This document shows positions 8,771 through 16,684 of a DNA stretch of 41,132 bases, piece by piece (the first letter of the stretch is position 1; each line of letters starts with the position of its first letter). The notes beneath the pieces were generated by a model that saw nothing but the letters and a program-made list of their open reading frames with translations, searched no databases and was not told the origin of the DNA. Source of the stretch: Pseudomonadota bacterium (GTDB taxonomy: Bacteria > Pseudomonadota > Gammaproteobacteria > Burkholderiales > Chitinibacteraceae). Both the position numbers and the translations under genes were made by a program. The stretch is from assembly GCA_026399755.1 (NCBI GenBank), contig JAPLQI010000099.1, positions 1 to 41,132 of the forward strand, given 5' to 3'.

Positions 8771-9130
8771 TTAGGCGGCTAGTTTCGCCTTAGCGATTTC
8801 AACAAACTGGGCAAAAGCCGGTTTGTCAAAAATAGCCATATCAGCGAGAACCTTACGGTCAACTTCAATACCAGCTTTCTTCAGACCGTTCATGAAACGG
8901 CTGTAGGCCAGACCGCACTCACGGGAAGCTGCGTTAATACGCGCAATCCATAGGCGACGGAACTGACGCTTTTTCTGACGACGGTCACGGTAAGCGTATT
9001 GACCTGCCTTCATGACAGCCTGTTTGGCTACACGATAGACATTTTTACGACGACCACGATAGCCTTTGGCCAGAGCGATGATTTTCTTATGACGGGCACG
9101 AGCTGTAACACCACGTTTAACGCGAGGCAT
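8771..9130 (-). CDS. rplT: 50S ribosomal protein L20
   Basis: 119-aa 23S rRNA-binding assembly protein of the large subunit. The family start [16 protein letters not shown] and the [10 protein letters not shown] segment are present, and length is normal. It follows rpmI by 16 bases in the infC-rpmI-rplT operon. In other bacteria L20 represses its own operon by binding the leader upstream of rpmI; the structured infC-rpmI spacer here would be the place for that. Confidence 0.98.
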
Positions 9131-9513: not shown

Positions 9514-10041
9514 TTAAGCGGCTTTCTTTTTAGGAGCCAGCATCATGACCATTTGACGCCCTTCCAGACGTGGATACTGCTCAACCACAACCAAATCGCC
9601 CAGATCAGCTTCAACACGTTTCAGCTGAGCCATACCGATTTCTTGGTGAGCCATTTCACGACCACGGAAGCGCAAAGTAATCTTTGCTTTATCGCCATCG
9701 GCGAGGAAGCGGGTCAAATTACGCAGTTTGATCTGGTAATCGTTCTCGTCCGTACCCGGGCGGAACTTGATTTCCTTGACCTGGACCTGCTTCTGGTTCT
9801 GCTTGGCGGCGTGTTTCTTTTTCGAGTCCTGATACTTAAATTTGCCGTAATCCATAATGCGGCAAACTGGCGGCTGTGCTGTCGGTGCGATTTCCACCAG
9901 ATCAACATTGGCCTCTTCGGCCAGAGCCAAAGCCTCGGAAAGGCTGACGATACCAAGCTGCTCGCCATCCACACCCTGCAAACGTAACTCACGGGCGGTG
10001 ATTTCACCGTTAATCCGTGGTTCTTTATCCTGAGAAGCTAT
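9514..10041 (-). CDS. infC: Translation initiation factor IF-3, probable AUA start
   Basis: 175-aa initiation factor that keeps subunits apart and rejects wrong start codons. The N-domain reads [18 protein letters not shown], the C-domain [18 protein letters not shown] and [12 protein letters not shown], ending LAPKKK. The start chosen is ATA at 10041 because GGAG (10049-10052) lies exactly seven bases before it, and because IF-3 of related bacteria begins close to this residue. The in-frame ATG at 10059 has no ribosome-binding site and would place that GGAG inside the gene. Rare start codons let IF-3 repress its own translation (AUU in E. coli). It follows thrS by about 50 bases. Confidence 0.95.
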
Positions 10042-10089
10042 TGTGATTCTCCAAGTCATTCAAAATCAAAACCGCGCTACCGCCTACGA

Positions 10090-11994
10090 TTAAACCTTTG
10101 GCATTTCTGATTGCAGACGCTCTACAAGCGCCTCAATCGTCAATTGACCTAGGTCTTCACCAGTACGGCTTCGCACGGCCACTAGGCCTGCCTCTTTCTC
10201 CTTATCACCAACAATTAGCTGATAAGGAAGACGTTGCAGGCTATGTTCACGAATTTTATAGGTAATCTTCTCATTTCTCAAGTCTGCTTGAACTCTAAAA
10301 CCAAGAGACTTGAGTTTTTCGCACACTTCTACGGCATATTCACGCTGCGCATCTGAAATATTCAGAACCACAAGCTGAGTTGGCGCAAGCCAAACAGGGA
10401 ATGCACCAGCATGATTTTCAATCAGAATACCAATAAAGCGCTCCATCGATCCCAATACCGCACGATGCAGCATCAAAGGACGATGTTTAGCATTATCAAT
10501 CCCGACATACTCAGCGCCTAAACGCTCTGGTAAATTCGGGTCGATCTGTAAAGTACCACATTGCCACACACGACCCAGACAATCTTTTAAAGAAAATTCA
10601 ATTTTCGGACCATAAAACGCGCCTTCACCTGGCTGATACTCAAAAGCCAAGCCCTTGGAATCCAGTGCAGCGGCCAGCGCAGCCTCGGCATGATCCCAGC
10701 TTTCTTCTGTCCCAACACGTTTTTCCGGACGAGTGGATAGCTTAACCAAAATTTCATTAAAGCCAAAATCTGCATACACTTCTTGCAGCAGATCGATAAA
10801 CGAAGCCGCTTCAGCTTGAACTTGTTCTTCCGTACAGAAGATATGTGCATCATCTTGCACAAAGCCACGTACCCGCATAATGCCGTGCAAAGACCCTGAA
10901 GGCTCGTTGCGGTGACAAGAGCCAAATTCTGAGAAACGTAGTGGCAAATCGCGGTAGGAGCGCAGGCCTTGATTAAAGACTTGAATATGCCCTGGGCAAT
11001 TCATTGGCTTCACGGCGTAATCGCGTTTTTCCGATTCTGTCGTAAACATCGCGTCATGGTAGTTTTCCCAGTGGCCCGATTTCTCCCACAAAGAACGATC
11101 CATCACCATCGGCGTACGAATTTCTTGATAGCCATGCTGATCAAGCTTCTTGCGCATGTATTGCTCAATTGTCTGCCAAAGCGCCCAACCCTTAGGGTGC
11201 CAGAACACCATACCTGGCGCTTCTTCTTGCATATGAAATAAATCAAGCTGCTTACCAATTTTGCGGTGATCGCGCTTTTCTGACTCTTCCAACATATGCA
11301 AGTACTGCTCAAGCTCGTCTTTCTTCGCCCAAGCTGTACCATAAATACGGGTCAGCATTTCATTCTTACTATCGCCGCGCCAGTAAGCACCGGCAACCTT
11401 CATTAGCTTAAATACTTTCAACTTGCCGGTAGATGGCACGTGAGGGCCACGGCAGAGGTCAGTAAAATCACCTTCACGGTACAAACTTAAAACCTGATCG
11501 GCAGGAATCGACTCGATGATCTCGGCCTTATAAGCCTCGCCTATCGATTTAAAATAGGCAACTGCTTCATCACGCGACTGCTCATAACGCTCAACAGGAA
11601 TATCTTTCTTCGCCAACTCGACCATTTTCTTTTCGATGGCCACCAAGTCCTCTGGCGTAAACGGGCGCTTATAAGCGAAATCGTAGTAGAAACCGTTTTC
11701 GATCACAGGACCAATCGTCGCTTGTGCATCAGGAAACAGAGTTTTGACCGCGTAAGCCAGTAAGTGAGCTGCCGAGTGACGGATAATCTCTAAACCATCC
11801 GCATCTTTCTCGGTAATAATCGCCAACTTAATATCGCGATCAATAAGATAACTGGTATCTACCAACTTACCATCAACCTTACCCGCCAAAGCGGCACGAG
11901 CAAGGCCCGCGCCGATACTGGCAGCTACATCGCCCACGGTAAGCGGAGCATCGAATTGTCGTTCAGAGCCGTCTGGCAGGGTCACGATAGGCAT
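10090..11994 (-). CDS. thrS: Threonyl-tRNA synthetase
   Basis: 634-aa cytoplasmic enzyme that charges tRNA-Thr. Domain order is TGS (1-60), editing domain with H73, H77, C181 and H185, class II catalytic core with zinc ligands C333 and H384 (MNCPGHI, DDAHIF), and C-terminal anticodon-binding domain (from about 535). All expected active-site residues are present. AGGA lies about six bases before the ATG. It is the first protein gene of the translation operon and is preceded by a leader-peptide attenuator (12081-12188), so its level probably responds to charged tRNA-Thr. Confidence 0.98.
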
Positions 11995-12080
11995 ATTTTA
12001 TCCTGTGCTGCGCGTTGTAGATAAGATTGAAAAAATTACAAGTCGAAAGCCAACAGTAACAGATGCTGTAAAAAATGAAC

Positions 12081-12112
12081 AAAAAAAAAGTGCGGCTTGC
12101 GCCACACTTTTT
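12081..12112 (-). terminator. Attenuator terminator in the thrS leader
   Basis: Minus strand: AAAAAGTGTGGC (12112-12101) pairs with GCCGCACTTTTT (12096-12085). This gives 12 base pairs, one of them G-U, closed by a GCAA tetraloop (GNRA type), followed by an uninterrupted run of T to 12081. A strong intrinsic terminator lies here, upstream of thrS and 33 bases after a nine-codon leader ORF, so it should act as an attenuator. Confidence 0.85.
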
Positions 12113-12145
12113 ATAAATCAAGCCCCACGCACACATCACCCAGAA

Positions 12146-12175
12146 TTATTCTGTTGCGGTGCTAGTTCGATTCAT
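12146..12175 (-). CDS. Putative thrS leader peptide MNRTSTATE
   Basis: A nine-codon ORF with three threonine codons, all different (ACT, ACC, ACA), spelling MNRTSTATE. GGAG at 12185-12188 precedes the ATG by nine bases. The terminator begins 33 bases after the stop. A threonine-rich leader immediately before a terminator and the threonyl-tRNA synthetase gene is the classic architecture of ribosome-mediated attenuation. The identification rests on sequence layout only. Confidence 0.7.
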   Translation of the reverse strand: MNRTSTATE

Positions 12176-12199
12176 GGGGCTTAACTCCGTTAGATACAA

Positions 12200-12224
12200 G
12201 TATGATTTTATTTTCAAATCATAC
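12200..12224 (-). promoter_or_regulatory. Perfect inverted repeat between tRNA-Val and the thrS leader
   Basis: GTATGATTT (12200-12208 read on either strand) and its exact complement AAATCATAC (12216-12224) flank a 7-base spacer. No T run follows, so it is not a terminator. It may be an RNA hairpin that helps mature the tRNA-Val 3' end, or an operator. TATGAT on the minus strand (12223-12218) resembles a -10 box but lacks a recognisable -35. Confidence 0.4.
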
Positions 12225-12237
12225 CTTATGAATTTTT

Positions 12238-12314
12238 TGGTAGGGTTGGTGAGATTCGAACTCACGACCTCTTGGATGTCGACCAAACGCTCTAACCAAC
12301 TGAGCTACAACCCT
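12238..12314 (-). tRNA. tRNA-Val (anticodon GAC)
   Basis: A 77-nt cloverleaf with encoded CCA (12238-12240). The acceptor stem is AGGGTTG/CAACCCT, the D stem GCTC/GAGC, the anticodon stem TTTGG/CCAAG and the T stem GTGAG/CTCAC with loop TTCGAAT. The anticodon loop reads TCGACAT, giving GAC (Val). Position 33 is therefore C, whereas U is almost universal in elongator tRNAs. It is the first gene of the transcript that continues into the thrS leader. Confidence 0.93.
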
Positions 12315-12358: not shown

Positions 12359-12387
12359 ATTCTAAATGACTTTCTTACTCTGCACAA
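12359..12387 (-). promoter_or_regulatory. Promoter of tRNA-Val (probably also of the thrS block)
   Basis: Minus strand: -35 TTGTGC (12382-12387) and -10 TAGAAT (12359-12364, 5 of 6) with a 17-base spacer. The GC-rich sequence GCGGTC right after the -10 is typical of stable-RNA promoters under stringent control. Start of transcription would be near 12352, giving a leader of about 38 bases before the tRNA. Confidence 0.7.
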
Positions 12388-12839
12388 GCGCCCAACAAAA
12401 AAACATTCATCTAGTTTGCCTCTAATACGCACAGAGGAAAAGCCGAAGCTTTTTTATAACAAGTGCTCATTACCGAAGTCTTTCGCTCGTATCTAAATGC
12501 TTTTTCTAGTTGTGTACAACGATCATGCAATAACTTCATTCTAAAGAACTTTTCCTCAATAGATAAAAAGTAACTCCTTACAAACAATCGCAAAAAAATG
12601 GCTTATCTACATTACTGCTACATAACTGATACAAATAAATGATTTATGTCTTTAACATATAGACGGCTTGGCATTTTTTGTTATTATTCACGCGCCTCCT
12701 TAATATTTATGCAAGGTAGGCCGTTTTAAACGTAGCGACTCATAACAATAATCGGGCAAAAACATCTAAGTCAGCTGTTTTATGCCTGAGCCTTGAGCAC
12801 ACCACGTTGTTCACTCAAACCCAAGACACAGGGAGTTAT
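12388..12839. other. 452-base AT-rich spacer between divergent blocks
   Basis: This spacer separates the minus-strand tRNA-Val promoter from the plus-strand PEP-CTERM gene. I see no convincing gene: the only frame of 60 codons (12411-12593, minus) lacks a ribosome-binding site and resembles nothing I know. It holds a short palindrome CGTTTTAAACG (12722-12732) and a longer leader hairpin (12754-12787). Promoters for the plus-strand operon must lie here, but none matches the -35/-10 consensus well. Confidence 0.6.
12754..12787 (+). promoter_or_regulatory. Hairpin in the 5' leader of the PEP-CTERM/protease operon
   Basis: GGGCAAAAACA pairs with TGTTTTATGCCT around an 11-base loop, with one mismatch and one bulge. 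It ends about 45 bases before the ribosome-binding site of the PEP-CTERM gene and has no following T run. It could affect mRNA stability or translation. No match to a known riboswitch was recognised. Confidence 0.35.
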
Positions 12840-13544
12840 ATGAAGCAATCACTCAAGATGGCACTGCTTAGCGCAGCCATTGGCTTAACCTTGCCTGCAG
12901 CACAGGCATCTGTCCTTAACTTTGACGCAATGGCCCACGATATTTATAACGGAGGGGACTTGCTTAAAGATTCATCGTTCGATTTCAACGTAGTGGGCGG
13001 TGGAATGGCAGGCGCTATTACTAACTCAGCATCTTGCGACATTATTGATTGCCCTAAAGGTAATAGTAGCAACTTCTATCTTGCTAGTAATGACTCAGGG
13101 TTTACCATCTCAAACAGCGACAACCTTGGCTTTCTGCTCAGCAGTTTTGAAAGCAGCTTGGTTGCTCCAGTGGCGCAAAATATTCCTTTTTCTGTAGCTA
13201 AATTAATCGTTTCTGGCCGTGATATCAACAATGTGAGCTTTGCTGATTATTTTGATCTGCCTGGTCAAAATGCTGCAGGCAATTGGACCTTCAGCCAATT
13301 CAACTTCACTAACCCTGCTCGTATCTATAAAGAAGTTTCATTTTTCTCTTGCTTGACCACCACAAGCGGTGATTGCGTTGACATTAGCGCCAACCAATCA
13401 CAATTTGCAATTGATAATATTAATGTCACAGCCGTTCCTGAGCCTGCTGAATGGCTATTAATGATGCTGGGTTTAGCCAGTATCACGATGGTGATGCGCC
13501 GTAAAAATAAAGCTCAAAATAATTCAGCAGGGATTGCATCATGA
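12840..13544 (+). CDS. PEP-CTERM sorting domain protein
   Basis: 234-aa exported protein. The start at 12840 is set by AGGGAG four bases upstream. Residues 1-23 form a Sec signal peptide ending PAAQA. The body is a beta-rich, Asn/Ser-rich secreted domain of unknown role with two Cys pairs (CDIIDC, CLTTTSGDC). The C-terminus has the motif VPEPAEW, a hydrophobic helix (LLMMLGLASITMVM) and the basic tail RRKNK: the exosortase recognition signal of Gram-negative bacteria. Such proteins are membrane-held, then cut and released or attached with exopolysaccharide. Its stop codon overlaps the start of the protease gene (ATGA), so the two are translationally coupled. Confidence 0.88.
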   Translation: MKQSLKMALLSAAIGLTLPAAQASVLNFDAMAHDIYNGGDLLKDSSFDFNVVGGGMAGAITNSASCDIIDCPKGNSSNFYLASNDSGFTISNSDNLGFLLSSFESSLVAPVAQNIPFSVAKLIVSGRDINNVSFADYFDLPGQNAAGNWTFSQFNFTNPARIYKEVSFFSCLTTTSGDCVDISANQSQFAIDNINVTAVPEPAEWLLMMLGLASITMVMRRKNKAQNNSAGIAS

Positions 13545-16500
13545 TGAAACGAAGCATTATTAATTTAGCCGTAGCCGCATTGCTGACGACTGGGTTTTCT
13601 AGCGTAGCCAGCGCTGACGAAGTGCGCTTACCCTACATTATTCAACTGGCAGATAAACCTGCAGCGTCTTATACAGGCGAAGTAAACGGGCTTAAAGCGA
13701 CCAAACCCATTACAGGCAAGTTACTAGATGTGGATGCCTATGATGTACAGGCGTATATCAATTATTTAGATAAAAAACAAAGCAATGTAATTGCCAGCAT
13801 TGGCAATGCGCCGATCGTGCATAACTATCAAGTGGTTTTCAATGGCTTCTCGGCGATGTTGACCGATGCAGAAGTGAGAAAGCTCAAAAATAGTGCCGAT
13901 GTGGTCGCTATTACGCTGGATGAGCCACGCACCCTACAAACCAATTACACCCCTAAATTTTTAGGGTTGGATAAAGCAGGCACTGGATTGTGGTCATTAT
14001 TGAATGGCGCAAGCAGTGCCGGTGAAAACGTGGTCATCGGTGTAATTGATTCTGGGGTATGGCCAGAAGATCCTTCTTTTGCCGATCGAGTAAACACCAA
14101 TGGTGAAGCCACGCACGATGCAACAGGCCGCCAAGTTTATGATGCACCGCCTGCATCATGGAAAGGCTCTTGCGAAAATGGCGAAGGCTTCTCTACTGCC
14201 AATTGTAATAACAAGCTGATTGGCGCAAAAAAATTCAGATCACAATACGATTCATTAATTGCCAGTGGTGCAAAAGTAGCGCACTGGAGCGACTATAATT
14301 CTCCACGTGATAACGGGGGCCATGGCTCGCATACCGCATCAACCGCCGGCGGTAATGGCAAAGTTTCAGGCGTCATTGGCGGCGCATCCATTGGATATAT
14401 TTCAGGCATTGCACCGCGGGCCCGCCTTGCTACTTATAAAATTTGCTGGACTTCAAACGACCCTGTCCTCGCTGCTGGTAAAAACAACTGCTATGGCGGC
14501 GATAGCATTAAAGCCATCGAAGCAGCAGTAAGTGATGGTGTAAACGTTATTAACTACTCAATTAGTGGTGGTGAGCAGCTTAACGATCCTGTTGATCTCG
14601 CATTTTTAGCGGCAACCAATGCTGGTGTGTTTGTTGCTGCTTCAGCGGGTAATAGTGGCCCAGCGAATATGGTTGCCCATATTAGCCCTTGGCTAACTAC
14701 AGTTGCGGCATCGACCCACGACCGAGTTCAAGAAAGCACTATCACCATCGGCAGCCGAGTATTAAAAGGCGGCTCGGTAAACCCAGCCCCACTCTCAGCT
14801 AATCTTATTGTGGCTAAGAATGCCGGTATTTCTAACTACGAAAGCCTTTCTGTAGCCAGCAAAGCTGCACTAGATCGTTGCTTTGGCGAAGCTGATAGCG
14901 TGCCAGCAGATGCGAAGCTTGATCCGATTAAAGTTGCGGGAAAAATTGTACTTTGCGATCGTGGTGCGACCAATTTGGTAAATAAAAGTGCGGCAGTGAA
15001 AGATGCAGGTGGCGCAGGCATGCTGCTAACTAACGTAGCTGGCGGTTCGGCAACAATTTCGGCATTTTCACATGTTATTCCAACAGTACACATCAGTGCC
15101 GCTGATGGCGTAACAGCCAAAGCCTATGCAACTACAGCAGGCAGTGCTGCACAAGCCCTGTTTAGCGCATCGGTGACCACCTCAGCGGGTAACGCGCCTG
15201 TCATGGCTGATTTTTCTTCTCGCGGGCCAAACCGTGCAGATGCCAATGTACTGAAGCCTGATCTCACTGCGCCAGGTGTAGATATTCTAGCCGCAACTGT
15301 TCCTACGGCCAGCACAGAGCAGCACGCGCAAGTTGTAGGCGGAACACCGGGTGAAGCGGCATGGGAATCCATGCAAGGCACTTCGATGTCTAGCCCTCAC
15401 GTGGCTGGCCTAGCCGCGCTATTGCATCAGTTGCACCCAAAATGGTCTCCTGCCGCAATTAAATCAGCCTTAATGACCAGCGCCTATTCCACACTCAACG
15501 ATGGTCAGCCGGGTTTACAAAACGGCCTACTCCCTTGGGCGCAAGGTGCGGGACACGTTAATCCTAATGCCGCAGCAGACCCCGGCTTGATCTACGATGT
15601 AACACCGCTGGAATACGACCGCTATCTATGCGGCCAAGGTCAGCTCACTCCAGCCAAGTGCAGTGTAATCGGCAGCATTCAACCTTATAACTTGAATGTT
15701 CCTTCCTTAACCACTGCCAATGTGCTCGGTAAATTCACCTTTAATCGTACCGTGACCAATGTTAGCGATCGCGCAGCCATCTACACCTCACAAGCGGCGA
15801 TTCCCGGCTTTACTGCAGCGGTTTCTCCAACAACGCTGAGCTTAAACCCAGGTGAAAGCAAATCGTTTACCGTGACACTGAGCCGTACTAATGCGCCTAA
15901 AAATGTATATCAATATGGCGCATTAATCTGGTCGGATGGCACACACAGCGTACGCTCACCGATTACGGCAAAAGCGAGCTTACTTGCTGCAGTTGCACAG
16001 CTCAGCAGTGAGGCTAAAACAGGCAGCAAGGTCATCACGATTGCAACAGGCAGCGATGGTGTATTGACGCTAAGTAAAGCTGGCTTGAAAGAAGCCACGC
16101 TGACTAACGCTTCAATTACCACAGATACGGCGGCGAAAGATGGTGTAGCTGAATGCAAGGCAGGGACAAGTACTGCAGGTGTAAAAGTTCATCAATTTAA
16201 TATCCCTGCCAACAATCTGGTGACCCGTTTTGGGCTTTACAATTCAGACACCACTCACGGTGCTGCTGATGACTTAGATTTACTCGTCATGAATGCCGCT
16301 GGTGTGGCAGTTGGAAGTAGCGGTACTGATGGCTCGAACGAAACGGTGCAGTTAACTAACTTAGCTGCTGGCAACTACAAAGCTTGCGTTGTGGGTTACG
16401 CCGTAAAAGGTGGAAATACCAACTACACACTGTCTAGCTGGATTCTCAATGCAGGTGATGTAGGTGGCTCATTTAAAGCCCTTGCCCCAAGCAAAATCTA

Positions 16501-16684
16501 CGTAGGTGGTACAGCTTCTGTCGGCTTTAGCTGGAAAGATCTGCAAGCGGGTAAACGCTACCTCGCTAATGCGACTTACCTTATCGATGGCGCTGCGCAA
16601 AGTAGTACCTCGCTTTTGGTTGAAACCAACGATCCATTGCCGACAGCGACCTCTGTTACACGTGCTGTAAATGCAGGGATTTAA
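13541..16684 (+). CDS. Secreted subtilisin-like (S8) serine protease with PA domain
   Basis: 1047-aa protease. A signal peptide covers residues 1-25 (SVASA cleavage) and an inhibitor-I9-type propeptide about 30-130. The S8 catalytic domain has D170 (GVIDSGVW), H261 (GHGSHTAS), oxyanion N371 (SAGNSGP) and S615 (GTSMSSPHVAG). A PA domain is inserted about 420-550 (AGKIVLCDRG). An Fn3-like domain covers about 735-800, and a C-terminal beta region (about 870-970, DDLDLLVMN, LAAGNYKACVVGY) resembles a pre-peptidase domain. The layout is that of cucumisin-type subtilases. All catalytic residues are intact. It is expressed from the same operon as the PEP-CTERM protein but has no PEP-CTERM tail, so it is probably released. 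Confidence 0.95.
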   Translation: MMKRSIINLAVAALLTTGFSSVASADEVRLPYIIQLADKPAASYTGEVNGLKATKPITGKLLDVDAYDVQAYINYLDKKQSNVIASIGNAPIVHNYQVVFNGFSAMLTDAEVRKLKNSADVVAITLDEPRTLQTNYTPKFLGLDKAGTGLWSLLNGASSAGENVVIGVIDSGVWPEDPSFADRVNTNGEATHDATGRQVYDAPPASWKGSCENGEGFSTANCNNKLIGAKKFRSQYDSLIASGAKVAHWSDYNSPRDNGGHGSHTASTAGGNGKVSGVIGGASIGYISGIAPRARLATYKICWTSNDPVLAAGKNNCYGGDSIKAIEAAVSDGVNVINYSISGGEQLNDPVDLAFLAATNAGVFVAASAGNSGPANMVAHISPWLTTVAASTHDRVQESTITIGSRVLKGGSVNPAPLSANLIVAKNAGISNYESLSVASKAALDRCFGEADSVPADAKLDPIKVAGKIVLCDRGATNLVNKSAAVKDAGGAGMLLTNVAGGSATISAFSHVIPTVHISAADGVTAKAYATTAGSAAQALFSASVTTSAGNAPVMADFSSRGPNRADANVLKPDLTAPGVDILAATVPTASTEQHAQVVGGTPGEAAWESMQGTSMSSPHVAGLAALLHQLHPKWSPAAIKSALMTSAYSTLNDGQPGLQNGLLPWAQGAGHVNPNAAADPGLIYDVTPLEYDRYLCGQGQLTPAKCSVIGSIQPYNLNVPSLTTANVLGKFTFNRTVTNVSDRAAIYTSQAAIPGFTAAVSPTTLSLNPGESKSFTVTLSRTNAPKNVYQYGALIWSDGTHSVRSPITAKASLLAAVAQLSSEAKTGSKVITIATGSDGVLTLSKAGLKEATLTNASITTDTAAKDGVAECKAGTSTAGVKVHQFNIPANNLVTRFGLYNSDTTHGAADDLDLLVMNAAGVAVGSSGTDGSNETVQLTNLAAGNYKACVVGYAVKGGNTNYTLSSWILNAGDVGGSFKALAPSKIYVGGTASVGFSWKDLQAGKRYLANATYLIDGAAQSSTSLLVETNDPLPTATSVTRAVNAGI

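Follow-up and report, generated by a model that had tools for sequence, protein, structure and literature searches.

Genes and Features of the thrS Locus

The window, i.e., the whole 41,132-nt stretch of DNA analyzed here, carries on its minus strand a cluster in which tRNA-Val(GAC) is followed by a short Thr-rich leader ORF, an intrinsic terminator, and thrS, which encodes threonine--tRNA ligase (Table 1). Every element listed in the earlier note, namely the leader ORF with three Thr codons, its ribosome-binding site, the GNRA-closed terminator, and thrS, lies on that strand exactly where it had been placed. Among named thrS genes, that of Vogesella alkaliphila ranked best against the window's (77%). 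The leader ORF reads ATG AAT CGA ACT AGC ACC GCA ACA GAA TAA, with three Thr among its nine codons, each a different codon. The terminator hairpin has the form AAAAAGTGTGGC-GCAA-GCCGCACTTTTT (12112-12085), with a loop of the GNRA type, and the T run that follows extends to 12081. On the minus strand, the end of the tRNA and the end of the leader ORF are 92 nt apart, and the terminator and thrS 86 nt. The predicted fold of the 168 nt at 12237-12070 has an energy of −58.8 kcal/mol; dinucleotide shuffles of it average −34.05 ± 3.91 (z −6.33; 0/200 as low).

Table 1. Features of the thrS locus in the window, in the order of the minus strand.
Feature	Position	Strand	Basis or remark
Candidate promoter: −35 TTGTGC (12387-12382), 17 nt, −10 TAGAAT (12364-12359)	12359..12387	−	5' of tRNA-Val; by eye
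tRNA-Val(GAC)	12314-12238	−	ARAGORN and Rfam; would be transcribed first in the unit
Spacer hairpin (tRNA-Val to leader) in genomes of the window's genus	12226-12198	−	Folds
Shine-Dalgarno (SD)-like GGAG of the leader	12188-12185	−	Nine bases before ATG
Helix P1, 5' strand (SD spacer and start codon)	12173..12187	−	Folds, covariation
Leader ORF MNRTSTATE and stop	12175-12146	−	Thr-rich leader in 37/37 family genomes
Region 2, common to P1 and the predicted antiterminator	12120..12131	−	Folding model
Helix P1, 3' strand (includes TGGGGCTT)	12115..12129	−	Folds
Intrinsic terminator with T run	12112-12081	−	Sequence and fold
Region 3, terminator 5' arm and loop; partner of region 2 when stalling is modelled	12098..12109	−	
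thrS, threonine--tRNA ligase	11994-10090	−	TIGR00418, 735.6 bits
infC	9514..10059	−	TIGR00168; downstream in the inferred operon
rpmI (L35), 65 codons	9147..9344	−	Named from position and sequence by eye
rplT (L20)	8771..9130	−	TIGR01032
Terminator-like hairpin 3' of rplT, before pheS (ends approximate)	8755-8727	−	By eye

Downstream of thrS, infC, rpmI, and rplT are followed by a terminator-like hairpin before pheS, which is probably the end of the transcription unit; the likely unit is therefore tRNA-Val-leader-thrS-infC-rpmI-rplT. From the gene order and this hairpin, it is plausible that the expression of infC, rpmI, and rplT would depend on the leader. No Phe-rich leader was seen by eye before pheS. 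At the other end of the unit, the TTGTG and TAGAAT of the candidate promoter before tRNA-Val are kept in all nine genomes of the window's genus (by eye), and the TTGTGC-17-TAGAAT arrangement is absent from the output of the consensus promoter scan. A promoter within the spacer between the tRNA and the leader (12232-12205) was considered and rejected, as shuffles of this region average 2.1 such sites and the region itself has 3. The spacer also contains a hairpin in which 4 of 10 pairs have both bases substituted in one or more of the nine genus genomes, and which may be a processing signal. Farther upstream, on the plus strand, 12807-13544 encodes a PEP-CTERM protein (NF038120) and adjoins a large ORF (13541-16684) for which a weak match to a serine protease was obtained.

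Conservation of the Leader Within and Beyond the Family

Taken alone, the leader ORF is unremarkable, because 6 of the 36 terminator-like sites on both strands of the window, the thrS leader site counted, have, in the 200 nt before them, a comparable short ORF (at least three Thr in seven codons); it is conservation that makes it remarkable. Relatives were searched in 61 genomes, 37 of the window's family and nine of its genus. In all 37 family genomes, an ATG-initiated leader of 9-13 codons with 3-6 Thr lies directly before a strong GTGYGGC-type terminator upstream of thrS, and tRNA-Val(GAC) is likewise found upstream of thrS in all 37. The peptides in the nine genus genomes are MNRTSTATE, MDRTSTTAE, MNRTSTTTE, MSRTSTTAE, MNQTSTTTE, MNQVSTTTE, and MNRTSTTAE, with at least three Thr in each leader, though codons and positions vary. 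The earlier note had proposed a comparison of relatives as a check, and the outcome speaks for its reading: the Thr-rich leader is kept throughout genus (9/9) and family (37/37), and the stem it had named covaries between genera. The leaders of G017 and G026 are identical, so the family alignment has 36 rows. Three relatives (G011, G021, and G022) have a second thrS above the family cut-off (L146, L147, and L141), before which the scan shows no Thr leader; these second copies were excluded from the counts.

A strict test required a start codon and an SD-like site, excluded frames within tRNA-Val, and defined a cluster as at least three of the same residue in seven codons. Thr clusters were found in 37/37 family genomes, and clusters of each of 13 other amino acids in 0/37. 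Looser scans also showed an enrichment of Val, which we attribute to frames that run through the tRNA-Val gene, MVGVVGSS being an example; once these frames are excluded, Val clusters occur in 0/37 family genomes, 1/93 genomes of the order, and 0/80 named loci. Shuffled family sequences pass the loose Thr criterion in 38/185 cases and the Arg-Thr criterion in 125/740. Given these high chance rates, the conclusion rests on the strict test and on covariation.

Beyond the family, the order sample comprised 93 genomes from 50 families (100, less four of the window's family, two without a thrS match, and one with its upstream region lost at a contig end), and the sample from other orders of the class comprised 63 (75, less one of the window's own, six without a match, four not retrieved, and one with an unclear frame). 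The merged criterion, with a pass rate of 66/905 for shuffles drawn from all sets, detects a leader in 21 of the 93 genomes from other families of the order (14 families), leaving 72 without one; by the Arg-Thr criterion, a leader is present in 20/93 (13 of 50 families; shuffled, 81/1300). Among 80 named loci, 30 pass the merged criterion and 32 the Arg-Thr criterion (shuffled, 96/1160 for the latter), including Vogesella, Massilia, Janthinobacterium, Cupriavidus, Ralstonia, Acidovorax, Roseateles, Rhodoferax, and Thauera under Arg-Thr. Some taxa occur in both the genome set and the named set (the peptides of G062 and L001 are the same), so these counts are not independent. The loose criterion is unselective outside the family (Thr 23, Arg 19, and Val 16 of 93 order genomes; shuffled, Thr 24/325), and the strict test gives Thr in 13/93 order genomes vs. 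at most 4 (Arg) for any other amino acid tested, and in 24/80 named loci vs. at most 3. Fourteen of the 52 leaders outside the family have no more than two Thr. In other orders of the class, a leader was detected in 0/63 genomes by the merged and 0/63 by the Arg-Thr criterion. The linkage of tRNA-Val(GAC) to thrS (65/93 order and 36/63 class genomes) reaches orders without a detected leader. In the genomes sampled, the thrS Thr leader is widespread but patchy among betaproteobacteria.

With a looser criterion, one match was obtained in other orders (G144, locus L273; MSTTTAQR), and a named Lysobacterales MAG (L062) has MSTTSSQR; these two peptides, with a short hairpin before thrS, are possibly a separate Thr leader.

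Helix P1, Folding Models, and the Proposed Switch

Helix P1 joins the strand running from the SD-like site through the ATG with the strand just 5' of the terminator. Part of it had been recognized in the earlier note, and AAGCCCCA (12182-12175) is indeed complementary to TGGGGCTT (12127-12120) without mismatch. Across the family, the helix comprises 8-15 pairs per genome with varying letters, and each of positions −9 to −2 before the ATG shows 3-6 pair types. P1 is almost invariant within the genus, and its covariation support therefore comes from other genera. The P1 register was fitted, so the permutation control matters: pairing of P1 strands with their own partners averages −14.8 kcal/mol, vs. 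−9.3 kcal/mol with partners of other genera, and none of 2000 genus permutations reaches the observed value. The same holds when the Thr-codon strand is paired with the strand that follows the ORF (0/2000). Region 2 and region 3 pair only weakly better within than between genera (79/2000), so the predicted antiterminator shows no strong covariation of its own; region 3 hardly varies. In letter shuffles (100 per genome), all shuffles are beaten in 14/37 genomes for P1, 4/37 for the Thr strand, and 5/37 for region 2:3; the corresponding z values of the window are −3.5, −0.5, and −2.7.

The folding models treat a kinetic process at equilibrium and assume that the ribosome covers positions −14 to +15 relative to the first base in the P site. 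In the absence of a ribosome, the window leader folds as P1 plus the terminator. In the predicted antiterminator, 12131-12127 (UGCGU) and 12123-12120 (GCUU) pair with GCGCA (12102-12098) and AAGU (12109-12106). With a ribosome on Thr6 or Thr8, this helix amounts to −12.0 kcal/mol before the 3' arm of the terminator is made, and the same helix is obtained on Thr4. The modelled advantage of the window terminator over non-terminator ensembles is 13.0 kcal/mol without a ribosome and 0.5 kcal/mol with one stalled at Thr4. Once the ribosome is placed at the stop codon, the terminator leads by only 1.3 kcal/mol, and shut-off therefore needs ribosome release.

The models behave similarly across the family, where the terminator advantage falls on stalling in 37/37 leaders (means 12.8 free, 4.4 stalled, and 7.8 at the stop codon) and the Thr-stalled value is below the stop value in 30/37 and not below it in 7/37. 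The switch amplitude exceeds that obtained with a shuffled region 2 in 9/9 genus leaders (9.9 vs. 2.1), 28/28 leaders of other family genera (8.1 vs. 0.5), and 45/52 leaders outside the family (4.0 vs. −0.8). A region-3 pairing measure is equal in the stalled and stop states within the genus (0.71 each), and is higher stalled than free in 4/9 genus leaders and 41/52 outside the family. In other genera, the likely equivalent of the antiterminator is GCCGUGC with GUGCGGC, a pairing drawn in detail for G012; GCCGTGC occurs in 18/27 aligned leaders outside the genus (counted by eye). In these models the helices are mutually exclusive, and a stalled ribosome is predicted to favor antitermination.

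The antiterminator differs from the one first suggested. The GGCTTG part of the P1 3' strand is complementary to CAAGCC in the terminator, as the earlier note had observed, but this is not the best predicted antiterminator; we rejected it as the sole switch, since it uses the 3' arm of the terminator and folding favors the 5' arm and loop. The pairing would have to outcompete a hairpin with a four-base loop, and CAAGCC is found in just 3 of the 36 aligned family leaders (G000, G002, and G016). It may be a helper in the switch.

By all sequence tests run, the conserved leader appears to be a real Thr leader-peptide attenuator of thrS; that reading of the thrS spacer, already put forward in the earlier note, is borne out by conservation, P1 covariation, and the folding models. 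We infer that the leader is very probably a ribosome-mediated transcription attenuator that senses tRNA-Thr charging. Transcription would start before tRNA-Val and run into the leader, and a ribosome would start on MNRTSTATE. When Thr-tRNA is plentiful, the ribosome would finish and leave, the P1 strands would pair, the terminator would form, and the transcript would consist of just tRNA-Val and the leader. With Thr-tRNA in short supply, the ribosome would stall at ACU, ACC, or ACA, at the first of which the P1 5' strand would be covered, and the freed region 2 could pair with the terminator 5' arm and loop, so that polymerase would read through into thrS-infC-rpmI-rplT.

Known Systems and Alternative Explanations

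Leader-peptide attenuators control the thr, his, leu, trp, and phe operons and E. coli pheST, a synthetase operon. Like these, the thrS leader has a short ORF with many codons for the regulated amino acid, helices predicted to be alternatives, and a terminator before the gene. Unlike them, it has thrS as its target, it lies between tRNA-Val and thrS, and its P1 starts at the leader's own ribosome-binding site. thrS is a textbook case of synthetase self-control, by protein-operator binding in E. coli and by the T-box in Firmicutes. In E. coli, ThrRS itself acts on an operator in its own mRNA, whereas here translation of a leader, together with a terminator, would control the same gene. A T-box senses uncharged tRNA through RNA base pairing and involves no translation; the Bacillus thrS T-box has a leader terminator before thrS, as does the present locus, but no T-box match is found here. 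Similarly, Rfam Thr_leader is a Thr-rich leader with a terminator, yet its covariance model does not match here. Neither the T-box model (RF00230) nor Thr_leader (RF00506, thrABC) gave a match at E up to 10 in 11980-12240, nor at the gathering score in the window or 17 relatives. Other Rfam matches were weak (cyano_het_sRNA, E 0.018; L20_leader, E 1.4; and six others) and, being below gathering scores, were treated as chance. If the attenuator reading is true, betaproteobacteria would have a third way of controlling thrS, a leader-peptide attenuator; the production of IF3, L35, and L20 would be tied to Thr-tRNA charging, and many betaproteobacterial genera would carry a small regulatory ORF for which no Rfam match was obtained here.

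What we propose is a known mechanism, ribosome-mediated attenuation, on a gene not found so described in the literature searched. Among the matches listed, no title or abstract beginning indicates a paper on a thrS leader peptide, and none is described in the available portions of PMC2965389, PMC4833913, PMC1183508, PMC7509114, PMC3997798, and PMC4176332. These portions mention the self-regulation of E. coli ThrRS (PMC2965389), a terminator in the B. subtilis thrS leader (PMC3997798), and, through the title of a cited work, the induction of Bacillus thrS by Thr starvation (PMC7509114; PMC3997798). The thr leader of E. coli uses ACC eight times according to an excerpt of PMC1183508, whereas Thr codons in the thrS leader are mixed. 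An earlier prediction at thrS may be contained in Lopatovskaya, Seliverstov and Lyubetsky (2010; PMID 20198868), which PMC4833913 cites and which, to judge by its title, deals with attenuation in amino-acid and aminoacyl-tRNA operons.

Could ThrRS protein or uncharged tRNA-Thr instead bind the leader RNA directly, as an E. coli-like operator or a T-box would have it? Such control has precedents at thrS in the excerpts on E. coli (PMC2965389) and B. subtilis (PMC3997798), but we consider it extremely unlikely here, because neither arrangement predicts a Thr-codon ORF, the T-box model is without a match in 11980-12240, the window, or the 17 relatives, and the spacer between terminator and thrS folds weakly (−9.4 kcal/mol, a value without a shuffle control). 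A simpler arrangement, in which the hairpin terminates the tRNA-Val gene, thrS has its own promoter downstream, and the short ORF is incidental, would fit the position of tRNA-Val before the terminator throughout the family (37/37) as well as the frequency of Thr-rich short ORFs at terminator-like sites in the window (6/36, again counting the thrS site). It does not account for an ORF that is conserved and specific for Thr, nor for covariation in a helix around the start codon of the leader, and for 25 of the 52 leaders outside the family no tRNA was found in the upstream stretch, some of these stretches being short; we regard it as very improbable.

The remaining alternatives concern the Arg codon that directly precedes the first Thr of the cluster, a codon that is CGA in 80 of 83 CGN-ACN leaders (at 12169-12164, minus strand, for the window dicodon), yet CGA is rare among Arg codons in thrS of 32 named leader-bearing loci (57/1311) and in 13 window genes (21/353). 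This bias, together with the 14 of 52 leaders outside the family that keep CGA-ACN with two Thr or fewer, would be expected if the leader acted mainly via a slow CGA-ACU codon pair or the general translation rate rather than via Thr-tRNA as such. Such action is nevertheless quite unlikely, since family leaders have clusters of Thr and of none of 13 other amino acids, CAA replaces CGA in three of the nine genus members, and in some Burkholderiales CGAAC falls, by eye, in a strand complementary to region 2. An attenuator that reads the conserved CGA-ACU (Arg-Thr) pair as its pause site, rather than the number of Thr codons, and is tuned by Thr charging, also seems doubtful to us; there, a rare-codon pause would set the position of the ribosome, and the dicodon would be retained in numerous families of betaproteobacteria as other parts of the leader, its helices, and even its Thr count drifted. 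CGAAC is unpaired in both family folds examined base by base (G000 and G012). The choice of Thr codons is odd as well: 68 of 118 are ACT or ACA in the leaders of the 32 named loci, vs. 77 of 829 in their thrS genes.
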